Shown piece after piece: positions 28,043-46,533 of a stretch of DNA of 64,000 bases. Origin of the DNA: Clostridiaceae bacterium (GTDB lineage: Bacteria; Bacillota; Clostridia; Peptostreptococcales; Natronincolaceae). The notes beneath the pieces were generated by a model. That model worked only from the letters and a program-made list of their open reading frames with translations. It was not told where the DNA came from and ran no database searches. Made by a program: the position numbers and the translations under genes. The DNA is taken from the NCBI GenBank assembly GCA_020832135.1, contig JAFIFG010000124.1, positions 1 through 64,000 on the forward strand, read 5' to 3'. Numbering within the stretch: position 1 is the first letter of the stretch; the number at the start of each line of letters is the position of its first letter.

Positions 28043-28735
28043 TTACTCCTCTACTAAAGCCACAGCCCTTATAGGTGATCCAGAGCCACCACGAATTTTT
28101 AAGGGTAAACCAAAATATAAAAATCTTTTGTTCACAATCTTGTCAAGATTACAGAGGTTTTCTGTATTAGTTATATCATACTCCCCGCAAATTAAATGCC
28201 CTGAGAAATCCAAATCTTCTGGATGGTCTATAGATGGAGCATCCACACCGATATTTACTGCACCCTCTTCTGCTAACCACTTAGCAGCTTCATAGCTAAG
28301 GCCTGTATAGGTAGTTTGCCATTGTTCCGTACCAAAATACCTATCATAATGTCCCGTATGCAATAAAATAATATCTCCTTTTGTAAGCTGTTGATGAGAG
28401 TGTTTAAGGGCCTCCTGCAAATCCTTTATTTCAATTTTTCTACTGGGGGGTATATGGCTTACATCAATGCAAATGGCACTTCCCCAAAAATATTCTATGG
28501 GCATATCTTCAATGGTGGCCCCTGAAGGCTTGAATTCCCAAACAGCATCACAATGGGTACCACCATGCTCACTGATTAAAAGGTTTCTGGCGGAAAATCC
28601 TAACTTATCACTACCGGTCACCCTCTTATTTTCTTCATGGGTCATATTGGTCATAATGAAGGTAGGTTGATGCATAGGAAATACAGACATGCCTTGAAAA
28701 ATCTCTTGGGATAAATCTATTAGTTTTAAGCTCAC
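28043..28735 (-). CDS. Cyclase family metal-dependent hydrolase (candidate imidazolonase)
   Basis: A 230-aa member of the cyclase/kynurenine-formamidase/isatin-hydrolase family. The metal-binding motif HGGTHCDAVWEF (near residue 55) matches HxGTHxDxxxHF in most positions, and GDIILLHTGHYDRYF plus NIGVDAPSID are further family blocks. Relatives open cyclic amides; isatin hydrolase opens a five-membered lactam. Since every other step of xanthine fermentation has a candidate nearby, this enzyme could be the missing 4-imidazolonase making formiminoglycine. That is inference. It starts with GTG behind GAGGAGG and is read opposite to the purine operon, sharing its upstream region. Confidence 0.8.
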   Translation of the reverse strand: MSLKLIDLSQEIFQGMSVFPMHQPTFIMTNMTHEENKRVTGSDKLGFSARNLLISEHGGTHCDAVWEFKPSGATIEDMPIEYFWGSAICIDVSHIPPSRKIEIKDLQEALKHSHQQLTKGDIILLHTGHYDRYFGTEQWQTTYTGLSYEAAKWLAEEGAVNIGVDAPSIDHPEDLDFSGHLICGEYDITNTENLCNLDKIVNKRFLYFGLPLKIRGGSGSPIRAVALVEE

Positions 28736-29076: not shown

Positions 29077-29979
29077 ATGGAGAAACAATACGTACTAGCA
29101 GTTCCGAATTTCAGTGATGGAAGACGTAAGGAAGTCATTGAAGCTGTCGCAAATGAACTAAGGGATGTTGAAGGAGTAAAGCTTGTAAGTTGTGAACCGG
29201 AGCATGATTTTAATAGAACGGTTTTGACGGTAATAGGTGAACCAACACCTCTAAAGGAAGCCCTTTTAAATATGGCAGGTAAATCCTATGAACTTATCAA
29301 TATGGAGGAGCAGAAGGGAACTCATCCTAGGATTGGTGCACAGGATACCATACCTATCTTTCCATTTAAAAATATAACCCTAGAAGAATGTAAGCAATTG
29401 GCGGAGGAAATAGGAGAAGAAATTTATAAAAAATATAATGTACCGGTATATTTCTCAGGGGAAAATGCTAAGTGTGAAGAGAGAAAGGCTTTATCCTTCA
29501 TTAGAAAGGGACAATATGAAGGGCTTAAAGAGGTGGTGCACACCGATGAAAGAAAGCCGGATATAGGGTCAGCAACACTACATCCTACTGCTGGAGCCAC
29601 CATCGTTAGTGCAGATATGGAGGGATTAACCGCTTATAATATTTTCCTAGGGACAGAGGATTTAAATATAGCTAAAAAGATAGCCAAGGGTGTTAGAGGA
29701 CCCGGTGGTGGATTCTCCACTATTAGATCTGTAGGCATCAAATTCCCTGAAAGATCTGGAGTAGTAGTTTCCATGAATATGTTCGACTGTACAGCTACAC
29801 CTATTTATAGAGCCTTTGATTTTGTTAAAAATGAAGCCGCTAGATACGGGGTGGCGGTGACGGGTTCGGAAATCGTAGGTCCTGTGAAGCTGGAACATCT
29901 TTTAAATTCTTTAGAGCATTATTTAGCCTTGGAGAATTTTAGAAAAGAACAAATTCTAGAAAGTCATCTGATGGAGTAA
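29077..29979 (+). CDS. Formiminotransferase (FtcD-type, candidate glycine formiminotransferase)
   Basis: A 300-aa protein consisting only of the N- and C-subdomains of formiminotransferase; the cyclodeaminase half found in mammalian FTCD is absent. The active-site block THPRIGAQDTIPIFPF is near residue 82, and VYFSGENAK and GVRGPGGGFSTIRSVG are further family motifs. Known members move the formimino group from formiminoglutamate to tetrahydrofolate. In a purine fermenter the donor would be formiminoglycine, giving glycine. First gene of the operon; a strong AAAGGAGG lies 8 nt upstream. The matching cyclodeaminase is not in the window. Confidence 0.9.
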   Translation: MEKQYVLAVPNFSDGRRKEVIEAVANELRDVEGVKLVSCEPEHDFNRTVLTVIGEPTPLKEALLNMAGKSYELINMEEQKGTHPRIGAQDTIPIFPFKNITLEECKQLAEEIGEEIYKKYNVPVYFSGENAKCEERKALSFIRKGQYEGLKEVVHTDERKPDIGSATLHPTAGATIVSADMEGLTAYNIFLGTEDLNIAKKIAKGVRGPGGGFSTIRSVGIKFPERSGVVVSMNMFDCTATPIYRAFDFVKNEAARYGVAVTGSEIVGPVKLEHLLNSLEHYLALENFRKEQILESHLME

Positions 29980-30013: not shown

Positions 30014-31429
30014 ATGAAATATGATGTAATTGTAAAAAATGCAAGGATTCCTCAAGGGGATGACACGATTGTTACAAATATTTTAGTAAAGGACGAAAAA
30101 ATAGCAGGATTTTTAACGGATTTAGAAGGAGTAACCTCAGATAAAGTAATTGATGCTGAAGGACATCTGACGCTCCCAGGGTGCTTTGATTCCCATACCC
30201 ACTTTATGGATCCAGGTTTTACCCATAGAGAAAACTTCTTAACAGGAACATCTTCAGCTGCTGCCGGTGGATTAACCACCATTATGGATATGCCCTGTTG
30301 TTCAAAGCCTTCTGTAAGAGGGGTTGAGGAATTAGAGTCAAAATTAAATGCTATCAAAGACAAAGCAGTTATAGATTATGCCATGTGGGGTGGTATAACA
30401 GGAGAAGATATTCGTGCCGGTAAGAAGCATCTTATCAAAGAGCAGGTGGATTATGGTGTAACTGCCTTTAAAGTATATATGACACCATCAGTACCAACCT
30501 ATGAGAGAGTAACGGATCCTGAAATGCTAGAGGCCTTTAGATGGGTAGCAGAAACAGGAGTTCCAGTAGGTATCCATGCGGAAAATTTTGCAATGTGTGA
30601 CTATTTTGTTAAGAAATTCGAAGCGGAGGGCAGAATGGATGGTCCAGCATGGGCGGAAGCTAGATGCATAGAAGCTGAACAGGCTGCGATTGAACTAGGA
30701 ATCAACTTTGCTGAAGCTTCAGGAGCAAGATTGCACATCGTCCATATGAGTTCGGGTATTGGTGCTAAGTTAGTAGGAGAAGCCAAGAAAAAAGGTCTAG
30801 ATGTAACTTCTGAGACTTGCCCCCACTACTTGATGCTAAACTATCAAGATGCTATGACAGAGCATGGATCCTTTGCCAAGATTGCACCACCTCTTCGAAC
30901 AACAAAGGACAATGAAGAGCTTTGGGAAGGCTTGCAAAATGGTAGCGTAGACTTCATGGGAACAGACCATGCTCCTTATGAAATTGAAACAGAGAAGAAA
31001 TTTGATGGCTCAACAATATGGAATACATTCCCTGGAATACCTGGGGTAGAGACACTAGTGCCAATCATGGTAAGTGAAGGTTATAACAAAGGAAGATTAA
31101 GCCTTAGTAAATTGGTGGAGGTGTTAAGTACCAATGCCGCTAAGCAATATGGACTATATCCTAAGAAGGGTGCTATGTTCATTGGTTCCGATGCAGACTT
31201 TACCATCATTGACCTTGAAAAAGAATGGACTATTGACCAAAAGAAAACCTATTCTATGGCAAAATACAATCCATTACATGGCATTAAGCTAAAGGGTAAA
31301 CCAGTAAAAACAGTAGTTAGAGGAACCCTTGTTTATGATGACAATGTAGGCATTGTTGGTAAAGAAGGCTTCGGACAATTTGTAAGAAGACAAAACATAC
31401 AAAAATTAGATAGAGAAATTAAATATTAA
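30014..31429 (+). CDS. Allantoinase/hydantoinase-like amidohydrolase (candidate xanthine amidohydrolase)
   Basis: A cyclic-amide hydrolase of the dihydroorotase/allantoinase/dihydropyrimidinase group (471 aa). All binuclear-metal ligands are visible: HTH in DSHTHFMDPG (near residue 60), the Lys that is normally carboxylated in TAFKVYMTP, GIHAEN, HIVHMSS, and Asp in GTDHAPY. The C-terminal sandwich closes with GSDADFTIIDLEKEW. In this setting ring opening of xanthine to 4-ureido-5-imidazolecarboxylate is the attractive reaction. Allantoin or a pyrimidine ring are alternatives. GGGGGAC precedes the ATG; the next gene starts 12 bp after the stop. Confidence 0.85.
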   Translation: MKYDVIVKNARIPQGDDTIVTNILVKDEKIAGFLTDLEGVTSDKVIDAEGHLTLPGCFDSHTHFMDPGFTHRENFLTGTSSAAAGGLTTIMDMPCCSKPSVRGVEELESKLNAIKDKAVIDYAMWGGITGEDIRAGKKHLIKEQVDYGVTAFKVYMTPSVPTYERVTDPEMLEAFRWVAETGVPVGIHAENFAMCDYFVKKFEAEGRMDGPAWAEARCIEAEQAAIELGINFAEASGARLHIVHMSSGIGAKLVGEAKKKGLDVTSETCPHYLMLNYQDAMTEHGSFAKIAPPLRTTKDNEELWEGLQNGSVDFMGTDHAPYEIETEKKFDGSTIWNTFPGIPGVETLVPIMVSEGYNKGRLSLSKLVEVLSTNAAKQYGLYPKKGAMFIGSDADFTIIDLEKEWTIDQKKTYSMAKYNPLHGIKLKGKPVKTVVRGTLVYDDNVGIVGKEGFGQFVRRQNIQKLDREIKY

Positions 31430-31441
31430 GGGGGAGAGCAT

Positions 31442-32044
31442 ATGCCAAGACATGCCATAGTTGTTATAGATATGTTAAATGATTTCGTAGGGGAAAAGGC
31501 ACCGCTACGTTGTCCAGGTGGTGAAACCATCATCCCGGATTTACAAAAACTTTTTAAATGGGTTAGAAGTAGAAAGGATGACGATATCCATCTAGTACAT
31601 ATTCAGGAGGCCCATAGAAAAAATGATGCCGACTTTAGGGTAAGACCAGTGCATGCTGTAAAGGGTACTTGGGGATCGGACTTTATTAAAGAACTATACC
31701 CTGAAGGTGAAGAATATATCGTTCAAAAGAGAAGACATAGTGGGTTTGCCCATACGGATTTAGACTTGTATCTAAGGGAGGAAAACATTGATACAGTAGT
31801 AGTAACAGGGGTATGGACCAATGTTTGTGTTAGAAGTACTGCTTCCGATGCCCTATATAATGCCTATAAAGTTATTACTCTAAGTGATGGCTGTGCATCA
31901 AAAACAGAAGAAATGCATGAGTATGGGTTAAATGACTTAAGTATATTTACAAAGGTAATGACCATAGATGAATATATCGATGCATGGGAAAAAGGTGAAG
32001 ATCCTTGGTTAGGCGGAGGAGATGCCCAAAATAAAGTAAAGTAA
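31442..32044 (+). CDS. Cysteine hydrolase, isochorismatase/nicotinamidase fold (candidate ureido-imidazolecarboxylate amidohydrolase)
   Basis: A 200-aa hydrolase with the complete catalytic triad of the family: Asp in VVIDMLNDF (near residue 10), Lys in VQKRRHSGF (near residue 97) and Cys in GVWTNVCVRSTASDA (near residue 134). The family includes N-carbamoyl hydrolases such as RutB and N-carbamoylsarcosine amidase. Removal of the carbamoyl group from 4-ureido-5-imidazolecarboxylate therefore fits both fold and position between the ring-opening enzyme and the decarboxylase. The step assignment is inference. Confidence 0.85.
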   Translation: MPRHAIVVIDMLNDFVGEKAPLRCPGGETIIPDLQKLFKWVRSRKDDDIHLVHIQEAHRKNDADFRVRPVHAVKGTWGSDFIKELYPEGEEYIVQKRRHSGFAHTDLDLYLREENIDTVVVTGVWTNVCVRSTASDALYNAYKVITLSDGCASKTEEMHEYGLNDLSIFTKVMTIDEYIDAWEKGEDPWLGGGDAQNKVK

Positions 32045-32076
32045 AGTAAAGACACCAAAGGAAAGTGGTGAGGGAT

Positions 32077-32628
32077 ATGAAAATCGTTGTAGGAATAACT
32101 GGAGGCAGTTGTGCCATATATGGAGTAGGGATCTTAAAGGTATTGAAGGATTTAAATATTGAAACTCATTTGACAGTATCCACCATGGGAGAGTATGTTG
32201 TAGAACATGAATGTGGTATGAAGTTAGACGAATTAAAGGAGTTGGCGGATTTTTATTATGATAAGAAGGATCTTGCCGCCGTCATTTCCAGTGGTTCCTT
32301 TAGAACGGATGGTATGATTATTGCTCCCTGCTCTATGAAAACCTTGGGAGCAGTAGCCAATGGTATATCTGATAATTTAGTGACTAGAGCAGCAGATGTC
32401 ACCATAAAGGAAGGACGGAAATTGGTGTTAATGACTAGAGAAACACCCTTAAGTGTGATTCATTTAGAGAACATGTTGAAGCTGGCTAAAATAGGGGTAA
32501 CCATACTACCAGCTTCTCCAGGTTTTTACAATCACCCAGAAGGATTAGGAGATATTGTAAAAACCATGGTGGGGAGAGCCTTAGATCAATTAGGAATACA
32601 TGAAGAAATATATAAAAGGTGGAGTTAG
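32077..32628 (+). CDS. ubiX: UbiX-like flavin prenyltransferase
   Basis: A flavoprotein of about 183 aa in the UbiX/Pad1 family. The N-terminal GITGGSCAIYGVGILKVL, the SSGSFRTDGMIIAPCSMKTL block and GRKLVLMTRETPLSVIHLENM are diagnostic. UbiX prenylates FMN to prFMN, the cofactor of UbiD decarboxylases, and the ubiD-type gene follows directly. The ATG at 32077 gives the family N-terminus; an in-frame GTG at 32065 is possible because a GGAAA site precedes it. Confidence 0.92.
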   Translation: MKIVVGITGGSCAIYGVGILKVLKDLNIETHLTVSTMGEYVVEHECGMKLDELKELADFYYDKKDLAAVISSGSFRTDGMIIAPCSMKTLGAVANGISDNLVTRAADVTIKEGRKLVLMTRETPLSVIHLENMLKLAKIGVTILPASPGFYNHPEGLGDIVKTMVGRALDQLGIHEEIYKRWS

Positions 32629-32646
32629 TGGGAGGTGAGGAACAAG

Positions 32647-33987
32647 GTGGAAAGACAAATGCTTAGAAGCACCTTGAAAAAACTTGAAGCTATGGGGAAA
32701 CTTGAGGTTTGTAATGTAGAAGTGAACCCTGAATATGAGCTGGGGGCTGTATTAAAGTACTATAACAACGAGAGGCCCATGTTGTTCAATCGGGTGAAGA
32801 ATAGCAAAATCACTGTAGTTGGAGGATTATATGGTAGCCGAGAAATCTTTTATGATTTGATGGATACTACCCATGAGGATAGAATTTATCAGTTAATGAA
32901 TGCCATAGCTAATCCCAAACCTACGAAATTATTAAAGGATGGACCTATAAAGGAAAATATTATTACAAGAAATATAAATCTTCCAAAGCTTCTGCCGATA
33001 CCAAAGTTTCATGGCGACGATTCCTCCACCTTTATTACAGCTGGAGTCATGATAATTAAAGATCCCGACACAGGAAAGACTTTTACCTCTGTTAGACGTT
33101 TTCAAATCAATGGAGGCAATAAAATCAGTGTGTTAATTGCATCTGCTATGTTGAAAAATCAAATAGAAGCTTTAAGAAAAGGAAATAAACCTTTGGAGAT
33201 GGCGGTTGTATTGGGCTATGATGCTCCTTACTTACTGGCTTCCCAATTAAGTAGTCAGCTATATGGTGTAGATAAACACCAAATAGATAGTGCCCTTAGG
33301 GGTGAGGCCTTAGAACTTGTAAAATGTCATACAGTGGATTTAGAGGTTCCTGCATATTGTGAATGTGTTTTAGAGGGTATTATTCCTCCAGACAAAAGTG
33401 AAGTGGAGGGACCCTTTGGAGAGTTGATGGGGTATTATGGTGGTGTGGCACCCCATCCCATTATGGAGGTTACGGCAGTGCTTCATAGAAACAACCCTAT
33501 TTTCCAGGTGGCTTTCCCCTGTAGAGAAGAACATTTTTCCAATGGCCTGGTGAGGGAAATGGAGCTTTACAATGATATAAAAAGGTTAATGGATGTGAAG
33601 GATGTTCATATTACTATGGGTGGTGGCTATAGATTTCATGCTATCGTTTCTATTCATAAGAAAAACAAGGGAGAGGGAAAAACTGCTATTCTAGCTGCTC
33701 TAGGGGCAAATAAAGATCTGAAGCATGTGGTGATTGTAGATGAAGATATTGATATATTTAATCCTGATGCTGTAGAGGGAGCTATTGCAACCAGAGTCCA
33801 GGCATCCAAGGATATGGTTGTTATAGCCTCAGCTGTAGGTTCAGGATTAGACCCCTCCCATCTGTTAGAGAAAGCCAGTGATAAAATGGGAATCGATGCG
33901 ACAAAACCCGTAGGAGAAATAGGTAAGGGTTTTGAAATGGCCAAGATACCGGGATATGAAAAAATAGATATTAGCAAATATTTGTAA
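32647..33987 (+). CDS. ubiD: UbiD family decarboxylase (candidate 4-amino-5-imidazolecarboxylate decarboxylase)
   Basis: A prFMN-dependent (de)carboxylase, about 446 aa. Typical blocks are LRSTLKKLEAMGKLEVCNVEVNPEYELGAV at the start (shown in part), ITAGVMIIKDPDTGKTFTSVRRFQ near residue 135, PPDKSEVEGPFGELMGYYGG near residue 245 and VDEDIDIFNPDAVEGAIATR near residue 370. UbiD enzymes decarboxylate aromatic and heteroaromatic acids, so release of CO2 from 4-amino-5-imidazolecarboxylate is chemically reasonable. The GTG at 32647 is preferred: GGAGGTGAGG ends 6 nt upstream. Confidence 0.9.
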   Translation: MERQMLRSTLKKLEAMGKLEVCNVEVNPEYELGAVLKYYNNERPMLFNRVKNSKITVVGGLYGSREIFYDLMDTTHEDRIYQLMNAIANPKPTKLLKDGPIKENIITRNINLPKLLPIPKFHGDDSSTFITAGVMIIKDPDTGKTFTSVRRFQINGGNKISVLIASAMLKNQIEALRKGNKPLEMAVVLGYDAPYLLASQLSSQLYGVDKHQIDSALRGEALELVKCHTVDLEVPAYCECVLEGIIPPDKSEVEGPFGELMGYYGGVAPHPIMEVTAVLHRNNPIFQVAFPCREEHFSNGLVREMELYNDIKRLMDVKDVHITMGGGYRFHAIVSIHKKNKGEGKTAILAALGANKDLKHVVIVDEDIDIFNPDAVEGAIATRVQASKDMVVIASAVGSGLDPSHLLEKASDKMGIDATKPVGEIGKGFEMAKIPGYEKIDISKYL

Positions 33988-34039: not shown

Positions 34040-34309
34040 ATGAGATTAGCTATAGGTATGGTGGAGACCCGTAGTATGGTAGCAGCGGTGCAGGCGGCAG
34101 ATACCATGGTAAAGTCAGCAGATGTAGAGATTAAAGATTTTGACTTTGTGGGCTCGGGAATCGTAGCTGTTATCGTAACGGGAGAAGTGGCGGCAGTACA
34201 GGCTGCAGTAGAAAATGGAAGAGAAAGAGCTGCTCAATTAGCAGAAGTGATATCCTCCAATGTCATTGCTAGGCCCCATGATGAAGTAGATAAAATTTTG
34301 GAGGACTAG
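34040..34309 (+). CDS. BMC-H shell protein 1 (GSG pore)
   Basis: A single-domain bacterial microcompartment hexamer protein of 89 aa. It follows the PduA/EutM pattern: LAIGMVETRSMVAAVQAADTMVKSADV, a pore loop FVGSGIVAVI, GEVAAVQAAVENG and the terminal VIARPHDEV. The GSG pore is the common type that passes small polar molecules. It is the first of three BMC-H genes in the operon. Confidence 0.95.
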   Translation: MRLAIGMVETRSMVAAVQAADTMVKSADVEIKDFDFVGSGIVAVIVTGEVAAVQAAVENGRERAAQLAEVISSNVIARPHDEVDKILED

Positions 34310-34334
34310 ATACTTTTAGATGGTGGTGATAAGA

Positions 34335-34625
34335 TTGGCAAATTCTTTAACAAAGGTAGTAATGGAGAATATTCTTTCGACCTCACATAAGAAGGATTAT
34401 AAAAAAGAGCCTAAAGAGAATAGGTATAATACGAGTAACAATCTAAAGGATAGAGAAGAGGCACTATTAAAAAATGTATTACATAAAAAACATCAAGCAG
34501 TTGCTTTAGAGGATTTGGCAAATAATTGTACCCATAGGGAGAAAGAAAAAAGAGTGACGGAGGCTTCAAAAGCAAGGATGAGCCTAGAGGACTTGGCACT
34601 ACAGGTTAAAAAATCAAAACTGTAG
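34335..34625 (+). CDS. Small basic helical protein, candidate BMC scaffold or cargo adaptor
   Basis: I do not recognise this protein (about 96 aa). It is basic and low in complexity, with three short amphipathic-helix-like pieces separated by charged linkers: SLTKVVMENILSTS at the start, REEALLKNVLHKK with AVALEDLANN in the middle, and MSLEDLALQVKKSKL at the end. The LEDLA pattern occurs twice. Such pieces resemble encapsulation peptides that tether enzymes to BMC shells. The TTG at 34335 is chosen because GGTGGTGA ends 5 nt upstream; an ATG at 34320 lacks such a site. It lies between two BMC-H genes in the same direction. Confidence 0.55.
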   Translation: MANSLTKVVMENILSTSHKKDYKKEPKENRYNTSNNLKDREEALLKNVLHKKHQAVALEDLANNCTHREKEKRVTEASKARMSLEDLALQVKKSKL

Positions 34626-34636
34626 GAGGTGGAGAG

Positions 34637-35014
34637 GTGAAGGGAGCCTTAGGATTAATAGAAGCAGTAGGACTAACCACTGCCATTACGGCATTAGATG
34701 CAGCTACCAAAGCAGCAGATGTTACTTTGGTAGGCTATGAGAAGGTAATTGGTGCTAGTCAAGCCGTTAGTGTTACTATACAATTGGCAGGCGAGGTTGC
34801 AGCGGTAAAGGCAGCTGTGGAGGCAGGAGTAGAACGGGGGAATAGAGTTGGTACAGTATTACATCACCACATAATACCCAGACCCCATGAGGAACTAGAT
34901 TTATTGATAGAAACCTTTGAAAAAAACCTCAAGGAGAAGAAGAAGGCATCTAAAGGTACTAAGAAAAAATCAGAGAGCAAAAAAGAGAAAGAAGAAATTA
35001 AAAAGGAGGAATAA
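34637..35014 (+). CDS. BMC-H shell protein 2 with charged C-terminal tail
   Basis: A 125-aa BMC-H protein. The core ([34 protein letters not shown] ... shown in part; [12 protein letters not shown]) is standard, but the pore loop is [10 protein letters not shown] rather than GSG. After residue ~92 comes a 30-residue tail made almost only of Lys, Glu and Ser ([18 protein letters not shown]). It starts with GTG behind GGAGGTGGA. The tail could face the lumen or cytosol and bind cargo or nucleic acid; unknown. Confidence 0.92.
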
Positions 35015-35016
35015 TA

Positions 35017-35292
35017 ATGAGTCAAGCATTAGGTATGGTGGAGACAAAAGGATTAGTTGGAGCGGTAGAGGCAGCAGATGCCATGGTAAAGGCAGCAAAT
35101 GTTACATTGGTTGGTTATGAAAAAATTGGGTTTGGACTAGTAACGGTAATGGTTAGAGGGGATGTAGGTGCTGTTAAGGCCGCCACTGATGCCGGTGCAG
35201 AGGCAGCTAGGGCTGTTGGAGAATTACACTCTGTACATGTAATACCTAGACCTCATACAGAAGTTGAAAGAGTTTTATTAAAGGGAGAATAG
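35017..35292 (+). CDS. BMC-H shell protein 3 (GFG pore)
   Basis: A 91-aa BMC-H protein very close to the PduA/EutM consensus ([52 protein letters not shown]). At the pore the usual GSG is GFG ([10 protein letters not shown]), so six Phe side chains would surround the channel. It begins 2 bp after the preceding stop with GGAGG upstream. Confidence 0.95.
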
Positions 35293-35300
35293 GATAGAGG

Positions 35301-36065
35301 ATGAATTATTACCAGCGAACACAAAACATTTTACAGCACCTTCATGTTATACAGGATGGTAAACCCTTTAAAAAAGGTGAAAATCAGCCCTTTAAACCAG
35401 TGGCTTCAAAGGTATTGACCATATTTACAGGAAGTAGAGAGGGTTTAAAGATGGGGATGGAGAGGCTGGTAAAAATAAAGGAAAAAGGCCACAAGTTATC
35501 TATTGCCTTTTCCCATAGTGCCTTAAATGTCTTAGATGTAGAGGATATAAAAGCAACCCTTCATCCAGAAAAAATATATAGAGAGGGAGAAGTTTTGGAT
35601 GATGAAGTGATGAGAAGGGATTTTGATAAAATTTTTGTCATCACTACAACTCAAAATACAGTGGTTAAGCTGGCTATGGGGATTCAAGATCAATTTATAC
35701 CTTCTCTTCTTTGGAGTATGCTGTGGCAGAAAAAAGAAGTTTTCATCAATACGAAGGGGATTCTGTCTCCTAGGGGTGTGACTTCGAAACAACTCGTATT
35801 AGAAAAAATGATGAAGGATCACCTGCAAGAATTGGAAAAAATGGGGGTAAAAACAATAGAGGAGGATAAAGAACCTCTAACCCATCAAGTAAAAAATAAT
35901 GAAATAGATAGTAAGTTTGATAGTAAAAAAACCGTTATTACAGAAGCAGATATAATAAGATGTAGTAGAGAAAACAAGGAAATGATGGTGCCTAGCAATG
36001 CCATCATAACACCTTTAGCATATGATACTGCAAAGGGACGTGGAATCACTATAGTAAAGAAATAA
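35301..36065 (+). CDS. Flavoprotein-like BMC-associated protein
   Basis: A 254-aa protein I cannot assign firmly. The middle (TQNTVVKLAMGIQDQFIPSL near residue 120, and VLTIFTGSREG near residue 38) resembles the Rossmann-like flavoprotein fold of PPC decarboxylase/UbiX-type proteins. A charged linker (about residues 185-205) leads to a C-terminal block (TEADIIRCSRENKEMMVPSN, then IITPLAYDTAKGRGI) that looks like a segment shared by other microcompartment-associated proteins; this is from memory. The N-terminal helix (YYQRTQNILQHLHVI) could be a targeting element. It sits between shell genes, so a role in or at the compartment is likely. Confidence 0.55.
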   Translation: MNYYQRTQNILQHLHVIQDGKPFKKGENQPFKPVASKVLTIFTGSREGLKMGMERLVKIKEKGHKLSIAFSHSALNVLDVEDIKATLHPEKIYREGEVLDDEVMRRDFDKIFVITTTQNTVVKLAMGIQDQFIPSLLWSMLWQKKEVFINTKGILSPRGVTSKQLVLEKMMKDHLQELEKMGVKTIEEDKEPLTHQVKNNEIDSKFDSKKTVITEADIIRCSRENKEMMVPSNAIITPLAYDTAKGRGITIVKK

Positions 36066-36113: not shown

Positions 36114-36392
36114 ATGCATCTAGGAAAAGTAATCGGAACAGTAGTAGCTACCCGCAAAGATGAGACCTTAACCGGTTGCAAGTTGATGGCAGTACAGCCT
36201 TTAAATGTAACCAAACAGCCTATAGGAGAGGTTTTAATAGCAGTAGATACTGTAGGCGCTGGCATTAGTGAAATTATTATTTACACGAAAGGCACTGCTG
36301 CCCGCTATGGTGCATCAAAGCCACAATCATGCATTGATGCAGCAATAGTAGGGATTGTGGATCATGTAGACATATGTGCAGATGAAGAATAG
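36114..36392 (+). CDS. BMC-P pentameric vertex protein (EutN/CcmL family)
   Basis: A 92-aa EutN/CcmL-type shell vertex protein: MHLGKVIGTVVATRKDETLTG at the start (shown in part), then LMAVQPLN, VAVDTVGAG-like AVDTVGAGISE, and GTAARY. Pentamers of this family cap the twelve vertices of the shell. It is the only BMC-P in the window. No tandem-domain BMC-T protein was found. Confidence 0.95.
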   Translation: MHLGKVIGTVVATRKDETLTGCKLMAVQPLNVTKQPIGEVLIAVDTVGAGISEIIIYTKGTAARYGASKPQSCIDAAIVGIVDHVDICADEE

Positions 36393-36412: not shown

Positions 36413-38224
36413 TTGATAGCAGCAAAGGAAATAAAAAAAGCTATTGAATTTAGAGGATTAATAGACGTCTTAATGTCAGAGCAGAATTTTGCAGATATAG
36501 TATTGGCTGGAGGAAATATTGTCAATGTTTTAACAAGAGAAATCTATGTGGCGGATATAGCTATAAAGGGAGAGTATATTTTACTGGTGGGGGACTGCGA
36601 AAAGCTTATAGGACCTGCCACCATTGTAGTAGATGTGGAGGGGAAGTTTTTAACTCCTGGATTCATAGATTCCCACATGCATTTTGAAAGCAGTATGCTT
36701 ACTATAACAGAATTTTCAAGGTTATCTCTACCCTCAGGTACCACTACTTTAGTGGCAGATCCCCATGAAATAGGAAATGCCCTAGGGCCTATAGGTATAA
36801 AGGCAATGGCGGAGGAGTCTCGAGTTGTGCCTAATCATGTACATCTTGTGGTACCGGCATTGACACCGGATAGCCCTAAATTAGAAACCGCCGGCTATGA
36901 CATTACATCAAAGGACATGGAGGAAATACTGAATTATCCAAATGTAATAGGGATAGGGGAACTTCAAGGCTTTAGCAATGCAAAGCATGTCTATAGAAAT
37001 ACTCCTGAAGTCATAGATGACTTAGTGGCCTCCACCAGTTATGCCAAAAGCATAGGTAAAGTGGTGGATGGTAATGCACCTGAATTATTTGGTAGTGAAT
37101 TGGCAGCTCATATTATCTCTACCGGAGGGACTTGTTCCTGTCATGAAACCACTACAAAAGAGGAGTGTGTAGAGAAGCTAAGACAGGGAGTTTATGTTTT
37201 TATGCGGGAAGGGTCTACCCAAAGAAATATGGCGGAATGTATAAGAGCTGTTACAGAGGAAGGCTTGGATTCTAGAAGATGTATTCTTGCTACAGATGAT
37301 ATGGTGGCGGAGGATTTGCAAAAATTAGGTCATATGAATGAAATTGTCAAAAGAACCATAGCTGAAGGTGTAAACCCTGTGGAGGCTATACAGATGGTAA
37401 CCATCAATCCAGCCACTTATTTTGGATTTGAAGATAGAGGGGTTTTGGCTCCTGGTAAAATAGGAGATATAGCTATCCTAGATGATTTAGAAAATATGAC
37501 GGTGGAGGCAGTATTCCTAAAGGGACAGCTGGTGGCATCTAAAGGACAGCTGTTATTAAATCTTCCACCCTATATTTATCCACAAGAGGTAAAGCAGTCA
37601 GTAAAATGCAATCCTATTACGGAAAAGGATTTGGAAATCCATGTCAGTGGTTCTAAAGCCACTGTAAGATGTATTGAACTAATTCCAGATCAAAATCTTT
37701 CTGGAGCTCTAGAGGAGAACCTAAAGGTTCAGGGGGGGACAGTTATAGCCGATGTTTCAGGAGATGTTTTACACATGGCTGCTATAGAACGCTATGGTGT
37801 CAATGGTAGTATAGGAAAGGCCTTTGTGAAGGGATTTGGATTAAAGCAGGGGGCTTTTGCAGAAAGTATAGCCCACGATACCCATAATATATTGGTGGTG
37901 GGAACCAATATAAAGGATATGGTGATGGCGGTTAATAGGGTAATAGAGTTAGGTGGCGGCATCGCTGTAGCTAAGAATAGTAGAGTCATTGAAGAATTAA
38001 GGCTTCCAGTTGGGGGACTGATCACCGACGAGTTAACCGGGCCGGAAGTTAGTGAGAAAATTGCTGATTTAGAAAAAATTGTAAGGGAACAATTAGGTTG
38101 TAAAGTCCATGCACCCTTTATGCATTTATCCTTCCTATCGCTGTCAACCAGTCCTAAGTGGAAGATTACAGATCAAGGGTTAGTAGACGTTAACAACTTT
38201 GAAATACTGCCTCCAATAGTTTAA
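36413..38224 (+). CDS. Adenine-deaminase-like amidohydrolase with altered active site (candidate 4-aminoimidazole deaminase)
   Basis: This 603-aa protein has the full adenine deaminase (Ade) architecture: N-terminal sandwich, SHMHFESSM metal motif, GIGELQG, TDDM, and the C-terminal domain with SIAHDTHN. Several substrate-side motifs differ from the canonical Ade at 44815-46533: PSCVPATPFENAG becomes PALTPDSPKLETAG, DGHGPN becomes DGNAPE (a likely metal-binding His replaced by Asn near residue 221), EGSAARD becomes EGSTQRN, and CTDDKHPEDL becomes ATDDMVAEDL. It ends the BMC block and starts with TTG behind GGGGGGAC. Deamination of 4-aminoimidazole would complete the pathway; inference. Confidence 0.8.
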   Translation: MIAAKEIKKAIEFRGLIDVLMSEQNFADIVLAGGNIVNVLTREIYVADIAIKGEYILLVGDCEKLIGPATIVVDVEGKFLTPGFIDSHMHFESSMLTITEFSRLSLPSGTTTLVADPHEIGNALGPIGIKAMAEESRVVPNHVHLVVPALTPDSPKLETAGYDITSKDMEEILNYPNVIGIGELQGFSNAKHVYRNTPEVIDDLVASTSYAKSIGKVVDGNAPELFGSELAAHIISTGGTCSCHETTTKEECVEKLRQGVYVFMREGSTQRNMAECIRAVTEEGLDSRRCILATDDMVAEDLQKLGHMNEIVKRTIAEGVNPVEAIQMVTINPATYFGFEDRGVLAPGKIGDIAILDDLENMTVEAVFLKGQLVASKGQLLLNLPPYIYPQEVKQSVKCNPITEKDLEIHVSGSKATVRCIELIPDQNLSGALEENLKVQGGTVIADVSGDVLHMAAIERYGVNGSIGKAFVKGFGLKQGAFAESIAHDTHNILVVGTNIKDMVMAVNRVIELGGGIAVAKNSRVIEELRLPVGGLITDELTGPEVSEKIADLEKIVREQLGCKVHAPFMHLSFLSLSTSPKWKITDQGLVDVNNFEILPPIV

Positions 38225-39769: not shown

Positions 39770-39877
39770 GTAGTAAAAATTCCACAGGATAAATTATTTA
39801 TATATTTCTATGAACTTTAGAAAGGTTTTACAAAATTGAACAGAGTTCATTTTAAATTATACAGGGGGGAAACTGGC

Positions 39878-41209
39878 ATGAAAAGATTACTTATAAAAAA
39901 TGGTACAGTTGTAACCATGAATAAACAAATGGAGATATTTAAAGGGGATGTACTAATAGAGGGAGATAAAATCATTGATATAGCACCTAAAATCGAAGTA
40001 GCAGATGTGGAAACCATAGATGCAGGGGGGAAGGTGGTTATGCCAGGATTTATTCAAACCCATATTCACTTAACCCAAACCTTGTTTCGAGGGCAAGCGG
40101 ATGATCTAGAGCTTTTAGATTGGTTAAAGAAAAGAGTGTGGCCTCTAGAGGGAAGTCATACAGAGGAAAGTAATTATATTTCAGCAAAGTTGGGAATAGC
40201 AGAATTAATTAAGTCAGGCACCACCTCTATTATTGATATGGAAACAGTGAAGCATTCGGAGGCTGCCTTTGAAGCTATAGAGGAAAGTGGATTTAGAGCT
40301 GTAACGGGAAAATGTATGATGGATTATGGTGACGGATTACCAAAGACATTAATGGAAAAGACGGGACCCTCTATAGAGGAAAGTGAAAGGTTATTAAAAA
40401 AGTGGCATGGCAGAGGTGAAGGAAGAATTCAATATGCCTTTACCCCTAGATTTGTAGTTTCCTGTACAGAAGAGCTTCTGCTAAAGGTAAGAGATTTATC
40501 TAAAGCCTATGGTGTTATGGTGCACACCCATGCCTCGGAGAATAGAGGAGAGATACAATTTGTTGAAAAGGATAGGGGTATGAGGAACATCACCTACCTT
40601 CATAAGCTTGGGTTAACCGGTGAAAATTTAGTTCTAGCCCACTGTATTTGGTTGGATGAAGAGGAAATGAAGCTGTTGGCTGAGACGGGAACAAAGGTAG
40701 CCCACTGTCCAAACTCTAACTTGAAATTAGCTTCTGGTATTGCCAAAATTCCTGAAATGCTAGAGATGGGGATTGATGTCTCCATAGGTGCAGATGGTGC
40801 ACCCTGTAATAACAATCTAGATATCTTCCAAGAAATGAAAAGTGCTGCCCTCATACAGAAGGCAAGGTTGTTAAGTCCTACTGTTATGCCAGCGGTGGCT
40901 GTGTTGAAAATGGCTACCGTAGGTGGGGCAAAGGCAATGGGAATGGAAAGAAAGTTGGGTAGTATTGAGGTTGGGAAATTAGCAGATCTTATTATTGTAG
41001 ATACAAAAAAACTACATATAGCACCTACAGAGGAAGTAAATGTTATATCTCAATTGGTGTATTCCTGTAGAGGTGACGATGTAGAAACCAGCATTATCAA
41101 TGGTAAGGTAGTCATGCGAAATAGACAGCTTTTAACCTTAGATGAAAAAGGAATTATTCAAGATAGTAATAGAGTTATAAAAAAACTTACAAAGTTCGCC
41201 AATATATAA
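39878..41209 (+). CDS. Guanine-deaminase-like amidohydrolase (ATZ/TRZ, SsnA/MTA-SAH deaminase group)
   Basis: A 443-aa aminohydrolase. Metal ligands are seen in GFIQTHIHLTQTLFRG (near residue 55), MVHTHASEN, VLAHCIWLD and GADGAPCNNNLD. This last motif is common in the group that contains guanine deaminase, 8-oxoguanine deaminase and 5'-deoxyadenosine deaminase. The context of purine permease, adenine deaminase and xanthine dehydrogenase favours guanine to xanthine. The ATG at 39878 has GGGGGGAA 7 nt upstream; an in-frame TTG at 39836 does not. Confidence 0.8.
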   Translation: MKRLLIKNGTVVTMNKQMEIFKGDVLIEGDKIIDIAPKIEVADVETIDAGGKVVMPGFIQTHIHLTQTLFRGQADDLELLDWLKKRVWPLEGSHTEESNYISAKLGIAELIKSGTTSIIDMETVKHSEAAFEAIEESGFRAVTGKCMMDYGDGLPKTLMEKTGPSIEESERLLKKWHGRGEGRIQYAFTPRFVVSCTEELLLKVRDLSKAYGVMVHTHASENRGEIQFVEKDRGMRNITYLHKLGLTGENLVLAHCIWLDEEEMKLLAETGTKVAHCPNSNLKLASGIAKIPEMLEMGIDVSIGADGAPCNNNLDIFQEMKSAALIQKARLLSPTVMPAVAVLKMATVGGAKAMGMERKLGSIEVGKLADLIIVDTKKLHIAPTEEVNVISQLVYSCRGDDVETSIINGKVVMRNRQLLTLDEKGIIQDSNRVIKKLTKFANI

Positions 41210-42609: not shown

Positions 42610-43869
42610 ATGAAGCTTCATGTAGTGGGTCAAAATAATATGAGGGTGGATGCTGCAGCAAAGGTGACTGGAAAGGCATTATACCCTGAAGATGTTAGTT
42701 TAGAAGGAATGTTCATTGGGAAAACCTTAAGATCCCATAAACCCCATGCCTGCATTACCATAGATACTTCAAGGGCTGAAGCTATGGAGGGAGTTGTAAA
42801 GGTACTGACCTATAAGGATGTCCCCCATAATCATTACGGTGTATTGATGAAGGATCATGAGGTTTTTTGCAGTGAGAAAGTGAGGCGAATAGGTGACCCT
42901 ATAGCTTTTGTAGTGGCAGTGGACGAAGAAGTAGCTTCCAAGGCTTTGGCGAAGATTAAGGTGGAGTATAGGGAACTAAAAGCAGTATTTGACCCTGAAG
43001 TTGCCATGCACCAGGATGCTCCAAAACTTCATGGAGAAAGTAATATTGTCTATCACTATAAATTAAGACAAGGAGACATTGAAAAAGGCTTAGAGGAAAG
43101 TGCAGTTGTAGTGGAAAATACCTATGTTACACCTATGGTTGATCATGTGTTTCTTCAACCGGAGGCGGGGGTCGCTCATATGGAGAAGGACACCATTGTA
43201 GTTACTACCGCCACCCAATACCCTCATTTTGACCAATTGGAAATAGCAGAGGCCCTAGAGGTAGAGAAGGAAAAGGTAAAGGTAATCAATGCTGCAGTAG
43301 GAGGGGCCTTTGGTGGTAGAGAGGATATTACATTACAAATTCATTTGGCATTGGCTACAAAATTAACCGGAAAACCTGTAAAAGCAGTATACTCTAGAGA
43401 AGAATCCTTTATAGCCCATGCAAAAAGACATGCTATGGTAATGACCTATAAAACAGGAGCGGATGAAGAAGGGAAGCTAAAGGCAATGGAGGCAAGGATC
43501 ATAGGTGATACTGGAGCCTATGCCTCATGGGCCATTAATATAATGAGGAAGGCAGGAGTTCATGCAACCGGTCCCTATGAGATACCTAATGTAAAGGTAG
43601 ATAGCTATGCTGTATATACCAACAATCCCTTTGGGGGAGCAATGCGGGGCTTTGGTGCAACTCAACCCCCTATTGCCCATGAACAACAAATGGATATGTT
43701 GGCGGAGGCCCTCAATATAGACCCTATTAGCATACGTCTAACTAATGCTTTTAAGATAGGTTCAAAAACTGCTACAGGACAGATTTTAAAGGATAGTGTC
43801 CCTTTAAGACAGTGTATCGAAGCGGTGGCAGAAAAATTGGGATTTTCAGTGGTTAGTAGAGGGGTGTGA
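42610..43869 (+). CDS. Molybdopterin-binding subunit, N-terminal half (NdhL-like)
   Basis: A 419-aa protein equal to the first half of the usual ~750-aa molybdopterin subunit: KVTGKALYPEDVSLEGMF at the start, RIGDPIAFVVAVDEE, QPEAGVAH, AVGGAFGGREDITLQ near residue 230 and FGGAMRGFGATQPP near residue 345. It ends just before the second half begins in another gene. The same partition (about 425 + 330 residues) occurs in nicotinate dehydrogenase NdhL/NdhM of Eubacterium barkeri, so I read it as a natural two-gene subunit, not a broken gene. Confidence 0.88.
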   Translation: MKLHVVGQNNMRVDAAAKVTGKALYPEDVSLEGMFIGKTLRSHKPHACITIDTSRAEAMEGVVKVLTYKDVPHNHYGVLMKDHEVFCSEKVRRIGDPIAFVVAVDEEVASKALAKIKVEYRELKAVFDPEVAMHQDAPKLHGESNIVYHYKLRQGDIEKGLEESAVVVENTYVTPMVDHVFLQPEAGVAHMEKDTIVVTTATQYPHFDQLEIAEALEVEKEKVKVINAAVGGAFGGREDITLQIHLALATKLTGKPVKAVYSREESFIAHAKRHAMVMTYKTGADEEGKLKAMEARIIGDTGAYASWAINIMRKAGVHATGPYEIPNVKVDSYAVYTNNPFGGAMRGFGATQPPIAHEQQMDMLAEALNIDPISIRLTNAFKIGSKTATGQILKDSVPLRQCIEAVAEKLGFSVVSRGV

Positions 43870-43873
43870 TAAC

Positions 43874-44818
43874 ATGAAAAAACGAGGAAAGGGCATAGGA
43901 AGTATATTTTATGGCACAGGATATGGCAATGGATTTCCTGATGTTTCAAGATCGGTAGCTGTCCTCAGGAAGGATGGCAAGGTAAAAATCTATACTGGAG
44001 CTACGGAGGTGGGTCAGGGGTCCAAGACGGTATTGAGTCAAATAGCCGCCGAAACCCTGGGGATTTCTATAGAGGACGTCATTTTCATATGTGAAGACAC
44101 CTCCATTACCCCTGATGCTGGAACGGCAGCAGCCAGTAGGCAAACCTACAATACTGGGAATGCCATAAAGAAAAGCTGTGAAGAATTAAAGAGAAAAATA
44201 ATAGATGTAACAGTAAAGGCATCAGGGGCTGATGCTTGGGAGGAAATTAATTTAAGAGATGTTGCTTTAAACCATAAAGGTCAGATATTAAAGGGTGAAG
44301 GAGAGTTTATAGCAGAGACGACAGAAATGAAGGACGAAACAGGGCAAGGCAATCCCTACTGGCCCTATACCTTCAATGTATATGGAGTAGAGGTGGAAGT
44401 AGATACCACCAACGGTGTAGTGGAGGTGATAAAGGCAGTATGTGCACAGGATGTAGGTAGAGCCATTAACCCAAAATTAATTGAGGGACAGATGGATGGT
44501 GGCTTTGCTATGGGATTGAGCTATGCACTGTTTGAAGATTTGAATATAAAAAATGGTGAAATAAAACACAATAAATTAACTAATTATTTAATACCCACGG
44601 CTATGGATGTGCCAGACTTAGAAAAAATCATCGTTGAAGATCCTGAAGCTACAGGGCCCTATGGAGCAAAGGGTATAGGTGAACCGGTGATGATAGGTGT
44701 TGCTCCCGCCATCTTAAATGCAATATATGATGCAATAGGAGTAAGAATAACAGAACTACCTGCCACACCTAATAAAATATTGTTGGCTTTAAAAAAGAAA
44801 AGAGAGGTGGCACTATGA
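43874..44818 (+). CDS. Molybdopterin-binding subunit, C-terminal half (NdhM-like)
   Basis: A 314-aa protein that continues the preceding subunit: KRGKGIGSIFYGTGYGNG, TGATEVGQGSKTVLSQIAAETLG (shown in part: GATEVGQGSKT), TAAASRQTYNTGNA, and GPYGAKGIGEPVMIGVAPAI with the Glu (in GIGEP) expected to act as base. The frame is +1 relative to the upstream gene, with 4 bp between stop and ATG; GAGGGGTG lies upstream as ribosome binding site. Its stop overlaps the next start (ATGA). Confidence 0.88.
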   Translation: MKKRGKGIGSIFYGTGYGNGFPDVSRSVAVLRKDGKVKIYTGATEVGQGSKTVLSQIAAETLGISIEDVIFICEDTSITPDAGTAAASRQTYNTGNAIKKSCEELKRKIIDVTVKASGADAWEEINLRDVALNHKGQILKGEGEFIAETTEMKDETGQGNPYWPYTFNVYGVEVEVDTTNGVVEVIKAVCAQDVGRAINPKLIEGQMDGGFAMGLSYALFEDLNIKNGEIKHNKLTNYLIPTAMDVPDLEKIIVEDPEATGPYGAKGIGEPVMIGVAPAILNAIYDAIGVRITELPATPNKILLALKKKREVAL

Positions 44819-46533
44819 AGGAAGTCTTAAGGAAGAAGATAGAGATAGCAGCTGGAAGACGGAAGGCAGAGAGAGTACTAAAAGACTGTAAAATTATTAA
44901 TGTGTTTTCCCATGAAATTATAGAGGGAGATATTGCTATAAATGATGGAAAAATTGTAGGAATAGGTGAATATGAAGGTATAGAAGAAATAGATATAAGG
45001 GGTAAATATGTGTCTCCTGGATTTATAGATGGTCATGTCCATATAGAATCCTCCATGACTACACCACAGGAATTTGCTAAGGTAATTCTACCAAGGGGTA
45101 CCACTACTATTATCGCAGACCCCCATGAGATCGCCAATGTATGTGGCTTGGAGGGAATTAAATATATATTAGATGCCAGTAAGGACTTACCTTTAAATGT
45201 ATATATGATGCTACCCTCCTGTGTTCCTGCTACCCCCTTTGAAAATGCCGGGGCGGTTTTGGAGGCTGGAGAGTTAAAAACCATTTTAGATCATGAGAGG
45301 GTCTTAGGTTTAGGTGAATTAATGAATTACCCCGGGGTTATTGCCGCCGATGAAAAGGTGATGGATAAGGTGGTGATGGCAATGAATAAAATAATAGATG
45401 GCCACGGACCTAATATCAAGGGTAAAGATTTAAATGCTTATGTGGTGGCGGGAGTAAGGACTGAGCATGAATGCTCTACTCAGGAGGAAATGCTGGAGCG
45501 TCTAAGGCTGGGAATGTATATTTTAATAAGAGAAGGATCAGCCGCAAGGGATTTAGAAACCCTCATAAGGGCTGTCAACAAGGAAAATCTAAGAAGGTGT
45601 TTATTCTGTACCGATGATAAGCATCCAGAAGATTTAATTGCTAGGGGTCATATTGATAATAATCTACGTATGGCGGTGAAGGCAGGGATAGATCCTATAT
45701 CCTCTATACAAATGGCCACCATCAATGCTGCAGAATGCTATGGCTTAAAAAATCTAGGTGCTATTGCCCCTGGATATACGGCTGATTTGGTGGTATTGGA
45801 GGATCTGAAGGATTTTAATGTATTGAAGGTATTTAAGAAGGGTGATTTAGTAGCAGAGAATCAGAAACATTTATTTAAGGAAGCAGAGTCGGATTATTCT
45901 AGAGTAACAGATACAGTCAATATAAGAAAAATAACTAAAGAGGATCTACAGCTTAAGGTTACCTCTGATATAGTCAATGTTATTAGATTATTATCCCACA
46001 GTCTTGTGACAGAGAGGGTGGTAAGAAAAGTAGAAACAAAAAATAGTATGTTTAAGCACCATCATAGTTTAGATATTCTAAAAATGGCGGTGATTGAAAG
46101 GCATCATGCCAAAGACAATGTAGGATTGGGTTTGGTGGAGGACTTTCAGTTAAAGGGAGGGGCCATTGCATCAACTATTGCCCATGATTCCCATAATCTG
46201 ATCGTTATAGGAGATAAGGATGAGGATATGCTGCTGGCTATAGAGGAAGTCACTAGAGTGGGTGGGGGAATTACCATCTGTAGTGATGGCAAAGTACTAG
46301 AAACATTAGAATTGCCTATTGCGGGATTGATGTCAAATATTTCTATACAGGAAGTAAATAAAAAACTCATGAAGATGTTAGATATTGCTTATCATGAATT
46401 GGGGGTTAATAAAAACATAGACCCCTTTATGACACTCTCCTTTTTAGCCCTACCGGTGATTCCTGAAATCAAACTAACGGATATGGGATTGTTTGACGTA
46501 AATACATTTGAATTTATAGATATAAACCTGTAG
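44815..46533 (+). CDS. ade: Adenine deaminase, canonical form
   Basis: A 572-aa Ade enzyme that converts adenine to hypoxanthine and ammonia. The standard motifs are intact: DGHVHIESSMTTPQEFA, ADPHEIANVCG, PSCVPATPFENAG, GLGELM, DGHGPN, TEHECST, IREGSAARD, CTDDKHPEDL, and the C-terminal STIAHDSHN. It overlaps the molybdenum hydroxylase gene by 4 bp, so adenine can be carried on to hypoxanthine and xanthine by co-expressed enzymes. It serves as an internal reference for the divergent paralogue at 36413-38224. Confidence 0.93.
   Translation: MKEVLRKKIEIAAGRRKAERVLKDCKIINVFSHEIIEGDIAINDGKIVGIGEYEGIEEIDIRGKYVSPGFIDGHVHIESSMTTPQEFAKVILPRGTTTIIADPHEIANVCGLEGIKYILDASKDLPLNVYMMLPSCVPATPFENAGAVLEAGELKTILDHERVLGLGELMNYPGVIAADEKVMDKVVMAMNKIIDGHGPNIKGKDLNAYVVAGVRTEHECSTQEEMLERLRLGMYILIREGSAARDLETLIRAVNKENLRRCLFCTDDKHPEDLIARGHIDNNLRMAVKAGIDPISSIQMATINAAECYGLKNLGAIAPGYTADLVVLEDLKDFNVLKVFKKGDLVAENQKHLFKEAESDYSRVTDTVNIRKITKEDLQLKVTSDIVNVIRLLSHSLVTERVVRKVETKNSMFKHHHSLDILKMAVIERHHAKDNVGLGLVEDFQLKGGAIASTIAHDSHNLIVIGDKDEDMLLAIEEVTRVGGGITICSDGKVLETLELPIAGLMSNISIQEVNKKLMKMLDIAYHELGVNKNIDPFMTLSFLALPVIPEIKLTDMGLFDVNTFEFIDINL

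Follow-up and report, generated by a model that had tools for sequence, protein, structure and literature searches.

The gene cluster and its two adenine deaminase homologues

The window analysed here (the whole stretch of 64,000 nucleotides from a Clostridiaceae bacterium) contains a gene cluster in which BMC-H and EutN shell genes stand beside a UbiD-family decarboxylase, amidohydrolases and a formiminotransferase, the combination that marks a Xau/BUF1 xanthine microcompartment locus. All genes are on the plus strand except where stated. The first is an FTCD-like formiminotransferase (29077-29979), with formiminoglycine as the presumed substrate. It is followed by a cyclic amidohydrolase of the hydantoinase/allantoinase-like type (30014-31429), a candidate xanthine amidohydrolase, and by an isochorismatase-fold hydrolase (31442-32044), a candidate ureido-hydrolase. 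The UbiX flavin prenyltransferase (32065-32628) and the UbiD-family decarboxylase (XauD; 32635-33987), which would make 4-aminoimidazole, come next. Three BMC-H shell genes (34040-34309, 34637-35014 and 35017-35292) span positions 34040-35292, and behind them are a TIGR02536-like shell-associated protein (35301-36065; 49 bits, below the cut-off) and an EutN/CcmL pentamer, the BMC vertex protein (36114-36392). A PF04199 'cyclase' of the kynurenine formamidase/isatin hydrolase family, a candidate 4-imidazolone hydrolase, is encoded on the minus strand (28043-28735). This hydrolase is conserved in 55 of the 80 loci related to the BMC copy; it is divergent and upstream in Clostridia, and in most Bacilli clusters it lies directly downstream of the Ade-like gene. 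A DUF1989 gene is found behind it in most of these Bacilli clusters (18 loci; for example, 12649-13272 in L080).

A small lysine-rich ORF without an assigned family (34320-34625) lies amid the shell genes and is weakly conserved in a few loci; an unmatched ORF of 183 residues occupies the same place in A. metalliredigens. The isochorismatase-fold hydrolase has a close homologue of solved structure, 3hb7 (phmmer 410 bits, full length), labelled isochorismatase hydrolase, which could be re-read as a ureidoimidazole hydrolase. Further downstream in the window, the xanthine dehydrogenase-like molybdenum subunit is coded by two ORFs, 42610-43869 and 43874-44818, located 4 bases apart. This split is probably not a sequencing error, because it recurs in about 35 related loci; in other clusters the subunit is a single ORF of ~750 residues.

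The gene at 36413-38224 codes for a protein of 603 amino acid residues with a TTG start. It consists of Amidohydro_1 and Adenine_deam_C domains, belongs to TIGR01178, the NCBI adenine deaminase model, and is presented here as a candidate Ade-family 4-aminoimidazole deaminase ('XauE-type'). This cluster also encodes a canonical adenine deaminase, Ade (44815-46533, plus strand, 572 residues), which begins 6.6 kb further downstream. The position and strand of both genes are as reported in the first-pass annotation. The two proteins have 38% identity across residues 24-599 of the 603-residue protein. The TIGR01178 score of the latter is 492.3 bits, narrowly above the cut-off of 472.5, and that of the canonical Ade is 651 bits. 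Both are above the cut-off, and automatic annotation is therefore likely to name both adenine deaminase.

The AlphaFold2 (AF2) model of the 603-residue protein has a pLDDT of 92.8. Its best match in the PDB is 3nqb_A (Z 46.0, rmsd 2.7, 578 residues aligned, 29% identity), the structure of Atu4426 from A. tumefaciens and a member of the Ade/AdeC family. In the predicted model, the two-domain fold of 3NQB and its domain order are retained over the whole length.

The metal site and the Asn-type clade

The active site residues were compared in an alignment of 206 Ade-family rows. The rows came from the 80 loci mentioned above, the bacterial family of the window and a sample of 293 genomes of the class, with E. 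coli AdeD and the aligned part of 3NQB as further rows. The metal ligands in the AlphaFold 3 model of YerA are His87, His89, the bridging Glu179, His210, His231 and Asp283 (PMC12133300). The 603-residue protein shares with Ade/AdeC the two HxH ligands, His88 and His90 (H88-M-H90, 36674-36682), the bridging Glu183 (36959-36967, a segment that also codes for Gln185), the beta6 ligand His244 (37142-37144) and the beta8 residue Asp295 (37295-37297), which is both a ligand and the general base by the alignment and the YerA ligand set. The core of HxH, GE, H-E and TDD is thus retained, as had been noted at first pass.

The complete binuclear ligand set is not found in this protein. The residue at the beta5 position is Asn221 (codon 37073-37075), which sits directly after the strand 217-220 in the AF2 model, while the canonical Ade has the metal ligand His197. 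This column, DGHGP in Ade and DGNAP here, is identified as the beta5 metal ligand because of the YerA ligand list (PMC12133300). Of the 206 rows, 89 carry Asn at this point, 116 carry His and a single one carries Cys. Asn is present in all 89 distinct sequences of the branch, and His in 116 of the 117 other Ade-family proteins, E. coli AdeD and 3NQB included. The earlier suggestion that a metal-ligand His had changed to Asn agrees with both the YerA set and this distribution. YerA, an N6-methyladenine deaminase, is likewise an Ade-family enzyme with a changed substrate, but it retains all six metal ligands, including His210 at the position of Asn221 (PMC12133300). An Ade-family protein with Cys at beta5 is encoded at 7294-9072 of L162. 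Its motifs are altered (SGLDEY for DPHE, and GVWETVR), a second Ade-family gene is close by in the same genome, and the protein presents another possible change of function.

The first-pass annotation had read four motif changes together as the loss of the adenine deaminase signature. All four pairs are exact: besides DGHGP/DGNAP they are PSCVPATPF/PALTPDSPK, EGSAARD/EGSTQRN and TDDKHPEDL/TDDMVAEDL. The change of DGH to DGN proved to be clade-diagnostic, but the differences at TDDKHPEDL and EGSAARD are not, because proven adenine deaminases vary at these motifs. E. coli AdeD deviates from the canonical copy with TDDRNPWEI and SSCVPALEG, and 3NQB with TDDVFPDDL and R-GSHDHL. The two motifs, from which one or both of these proteins deviate, were consequently rejected as evidence. 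On the whole, the majority of the motif differences quoted at first pass carry little weight. Also clade-diagnostic, and less prominent than DGH to DGN, are the changes of Met to Gln at position 185 and of Ala or Ser to Asp at position 153. Among the differences from Ade that are fixed in the branch are Gln185 (Met in 97% of Ade; Met170 in the canonical copy), two residues past the bridging Glu183, Asp153 (Ala in 76%) and Gln270 (Ala in 73%). The groups for this comparison were set by the beta5 residue; gene context and the tree yield identical groups. The protein also differs from Ade by an insertion before beta5. His233, which is invariant in the branch and corresponds to Tyr in Ade, was considered as a replacement metal ligand. 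This is unlikely, as it would be located inside helix 227-236 in the model.

In quick trees without bootstrap, one branch with an SH-aLRT support of 100 and a long stem of 0.74 separates the Asn-type rows from all others. The clade persists, with a stem of 0.79, when all seven motif blocks are removed and the Gottschalkiaceae genes are added. The BMC-linked members thus form a clade, and do so without the motif columns.

Gene context, co-occurrence and purine-fermenting relatives

A shell gene is located less than 700 bp upstream of 84 of the 89 Asn-type sequences and of none of the His-type sequences. Grouping by context rather than by residue gives the same result, with Asn in all 84 shell-adjacent sequences. 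The other five comprise L017 and L046, at contig ends, two identical Thermosyntropha copies, both also at contig ends, and L065, a free-standing copy in Acidaminobacter. The constant neighbourhood is UbiX, UbiD, three BMC-H genes, EutN and the Asn-type gene. It spans Clostridia, Bacilli, a Synergistales genome and deltaproteobacterial MAGs, and it is retained also in loci without amidohydrolase and isochorismatase-fold genes in the vicinity.

BMC-free copies of the Asn-type gene are L065, L244, L246, L249 and L250. Four of these, L065 (9944-12590), L246, L249 and L250, are extra paralogues in genomes that also carry the BMC cluster. The L065 and L250 copies adjoin a PF04199 hydrolase, and the L065 and L246 copies adjoin ABC-transporter genes. 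In the Thermosyntropha lipolytica genome no BMC domain was found. The Asn-type enzyme, UbiD, the isochorismatase-fold hydrolase and the amidohydrolase are present in this species (L078/L079, L229) as a shell-free version of the pathway. The BMC-free copies and the BMC-free Thermosyntropha indicate that the Asn-type enzyme does not require the shell.

The association with the decarboxylase is strict. With the UbiD of the window as bait, and close orthologues defined by 54-100% identity, the pathway-type UbiD and the Asn-type protein were found in the same 11 of the 293 class genomes, 11/11 in both directions, although these genomes are not independent observations. UbiD accompanies the Asn-type gene in 10 of 10 further selected genomes, one of them BMC-free.

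These observations bear on the possibility that the 603-residue protein is a genuine adenine deaminase, a paralogue that tolerates its active site changes and was taken up into the purine operon to supply the pathway with adenine. The score above the TIGR01178 equivalog cut-off is in its favour. However, the tight link is to a decarboxylase and not to adenine use, and no member of the branch has retained the beta5 ligand. A His-type Ade is present in all 11 Asn-type class genomes, as it is downstream in the window, so these genomes could deaminate adenine without the Asn type.

Purine-fermenting relatives provide further evidence on this point. C. acidurici 9a has two Asn-type genes and one canonical-type Ade homologue. 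The first Asn-type gene belongs to a BMC cluster that also contains UbiX, UbiD, the amidohydrolase and the isochorismatase-fold gene, and the second is outside any BMC cluster. C. acidurici ferments xanthine and does not use adenine; Hartwich et al. reported three adenine deaminase genes in this species and did not find the genes for the post-xanthine steps (PMC3519856). By gene content, the BMC cluster supplies candidates for these steps. A. angusta also has two Asn-type copies and does not use adenine. The presence of the Asn type therefore does not confer adenine use in these two species.

The genome G324, taken as G. purinilytica, is the main observation in favour of adenine as the substrate. 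Its only intact Ade-family genes are two of the Asn type; of a canonical Ade, 65 residues remain, and a PF00962 deaminase is absent. G. purinilytica grows on adenine (PMC4582583, PMC5737214). Either another deaminase is at work there, or an Asn-type protein might accept adenine. A match between the presence of canonical Ade and adenine use in the Gottschalkiaceae was also considered; there is no correlation, and the sole adenine user has only the remnant. Taking both sides together, we consider it unlikely that the protein in the window is an adenine deaminase.

Probable function and relation to earlier work

The classical pathway from xanthine to glycine, reportedly established by Rabinowitz and Pricer in 1956, requires that the ring be opened, the ureido group hydrolysed, the product decarboxylated and 4-aminoimidazole deaminated, after which the imidazolone ring is opened and the formimino group transferred. 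Family membership and gene context suggest how the enzymes of the cluster may be placed on it. The xanthine ring would be opened by the cyclic amidohydrolase, the ureido group would be taken off by the isochorismatase-fold hydrolase, and 4-amino-5-imidazolecarboxylate would be decarboxylated by the UbiX/UbiD pair. The PF04199 hydrolase is the natural candidate for opening the imidazolone ring, and the FTCD-like enzyme would transfer the formimino group. With these enzymes allotted to the other steps, the deamination of 4-aminoimidazole is left for the 603-residue protein. It is very probably the 4-aminoimidazole deaminase (4-aminoimidazole + H2O -> 4-imidazolone + NH3) of an anaerobic xanthinase pathway. 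We infer this substrate from the clade, the co-occurrence with UbiD, the constant core neighbourhood, the C. acidurici genome and elimination. The earlier proposal of a different substrate, most plausibly 4-aminoimidazole, is thereby supported.

Two other assignments have to be considered. According to the first, the 4-aminoimidazole step belongs to the 5'-deoxyadenosine-deaminase-like amidohydrolase at 39836-41209, and the Ade-like protein is otherwise employed. This follows a published prediction: the locus was described as BUF (BUF1) by Axen (2014), and in the work of Ravcheev (2019), where xanthine use was predicted, step 5, the deamination, was given to Amet_4572, 'XauE' (PMC6620236), to which the gene at 39836-41209 corresponds by synteny. 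Its homologue does share the cluster in many genomes. However, an orthologue (63% identity or more) is present in only 6 of the 11 genomes with the pathway decarboxylase, 32 of the 62 long cluster loci have one, and the protein scores 715 bits against NF005557, far above the 5'-deoxyadenosine deaminase cut-off of 522. This assignment is therefore very improbable. The second would place the Ade-like enzyme at an adjacent step, for example with the imidazolone ring or the not yet decarboxylated 4-amino-5-imidazolecarboxylate as its substrate. It draws on the facts that the substrate is deduced from context and that the intermediates are all small imidazoles, but it is hardly tenable, since decarboxylation precedes deamination in the classical pathway, Ade-type chemistry is the deamination of a ring N=C-NH2 group, and PF04199, related to isatin hydrolase and kynurenine formamidase, is the better candidate for ring opening.

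The cluster of A. metalliredigens has the same order as that of the window: FTCD, cyclic amidohydrolase, isochorismatase-fold hydrolase, UbiX/UbiD, BMC-H genes, EutN, permease and XDH. Genes were counted between the anchors given by Ravcheev (FTCD 4586, UbiD 4581, XDH 4569-68). By this count, which does not use locus tags, the Ade-like gene is Amet_4574, and Amet_4572 is the deoxyadenosine-deaminase-like gene. The idea that Ravcheev (2019) had already made the Ade-like assignment is rejected by this count; the words adenine and deaminase are absent from the main text of that paper and Amet_4574 is not mentioned there (PMC6620236). The PF04199 gene corresponds by count to XauA (Amet_4587), which was placed at the six-membered ring step (PMC6620236).

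The preferred function, the deamination of 4-aminoimidazole, may be described in terms of the retained ligands, from which the mechanism is deduced. A metal-activated water would attack C4, the amino-bearing ring carbon, and ammonia would leave, as in Ade. The beta-metal would keep Glu183 and His244, and with Asn at beta5 it may be weaker, absent or bound via the Asn. Gene order suggests that UbiD and the deaminase are the cargo of the shell, so that 4-aminoimidazole would be made and consumed inside. No encapsulation peptide is evident on either protein, and the N-terminal helix of the deaminase is also present in the BMC-free copies. On this view the shell, by confining 4-aminoimidazole, would improve the pathway without being required for it. 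We tentatively propose, as a possibility that is less than even, that the change of His to Asn at beta5 gave the enzyme a modified site, perhaps with a single metal, and specificity for 4-aminoimidazole, that only UbiD and the deaminase are obligatory cargo, and that the shell confines 4-aminoimidazole. If this is true, it would be a 4-aminoimidazole-confining shell, unlike the aldehyde-confining metabolosomes.

Tong and co-workers reportedly characterised four hydrolases from different families and a prenyl-FMN decarboxylase. Such an enzyme set fits the cluster of the window. A 2025 paper (PMC12507026) attributes to Tong et al. 2023 (Cell Chem Biol) the identification, in Clostridia and Bacilli, of a gene cluster for the xanthinase pathway, which is independent of oxygen, and the taxa and steps given there match the operon of the window. 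The function of the Asn-type family has therefore probably been published already, and the statement at first pass that the 4-aminoimidazole step lacks an enzyme is probably outdated. The diagnostic residue, the correction to Ravcheev (2019) and the link of C. acidurici to the BMC cluster may be new.

By the beta5 residue alone, true adenine deaminases can be told from a purine-fermentation enzyme to which TIGR01178 gives the same name, and a published gene assignment is corrected. The model organism C. acidurici is unable to use adenine, and an explanation is also offered for two of its three 'adenine deaminase' genes. Finally, the BMC cluster is placed in C. acidurici, which ties the pathway biochemistry of the 1950s to a microcompartment.
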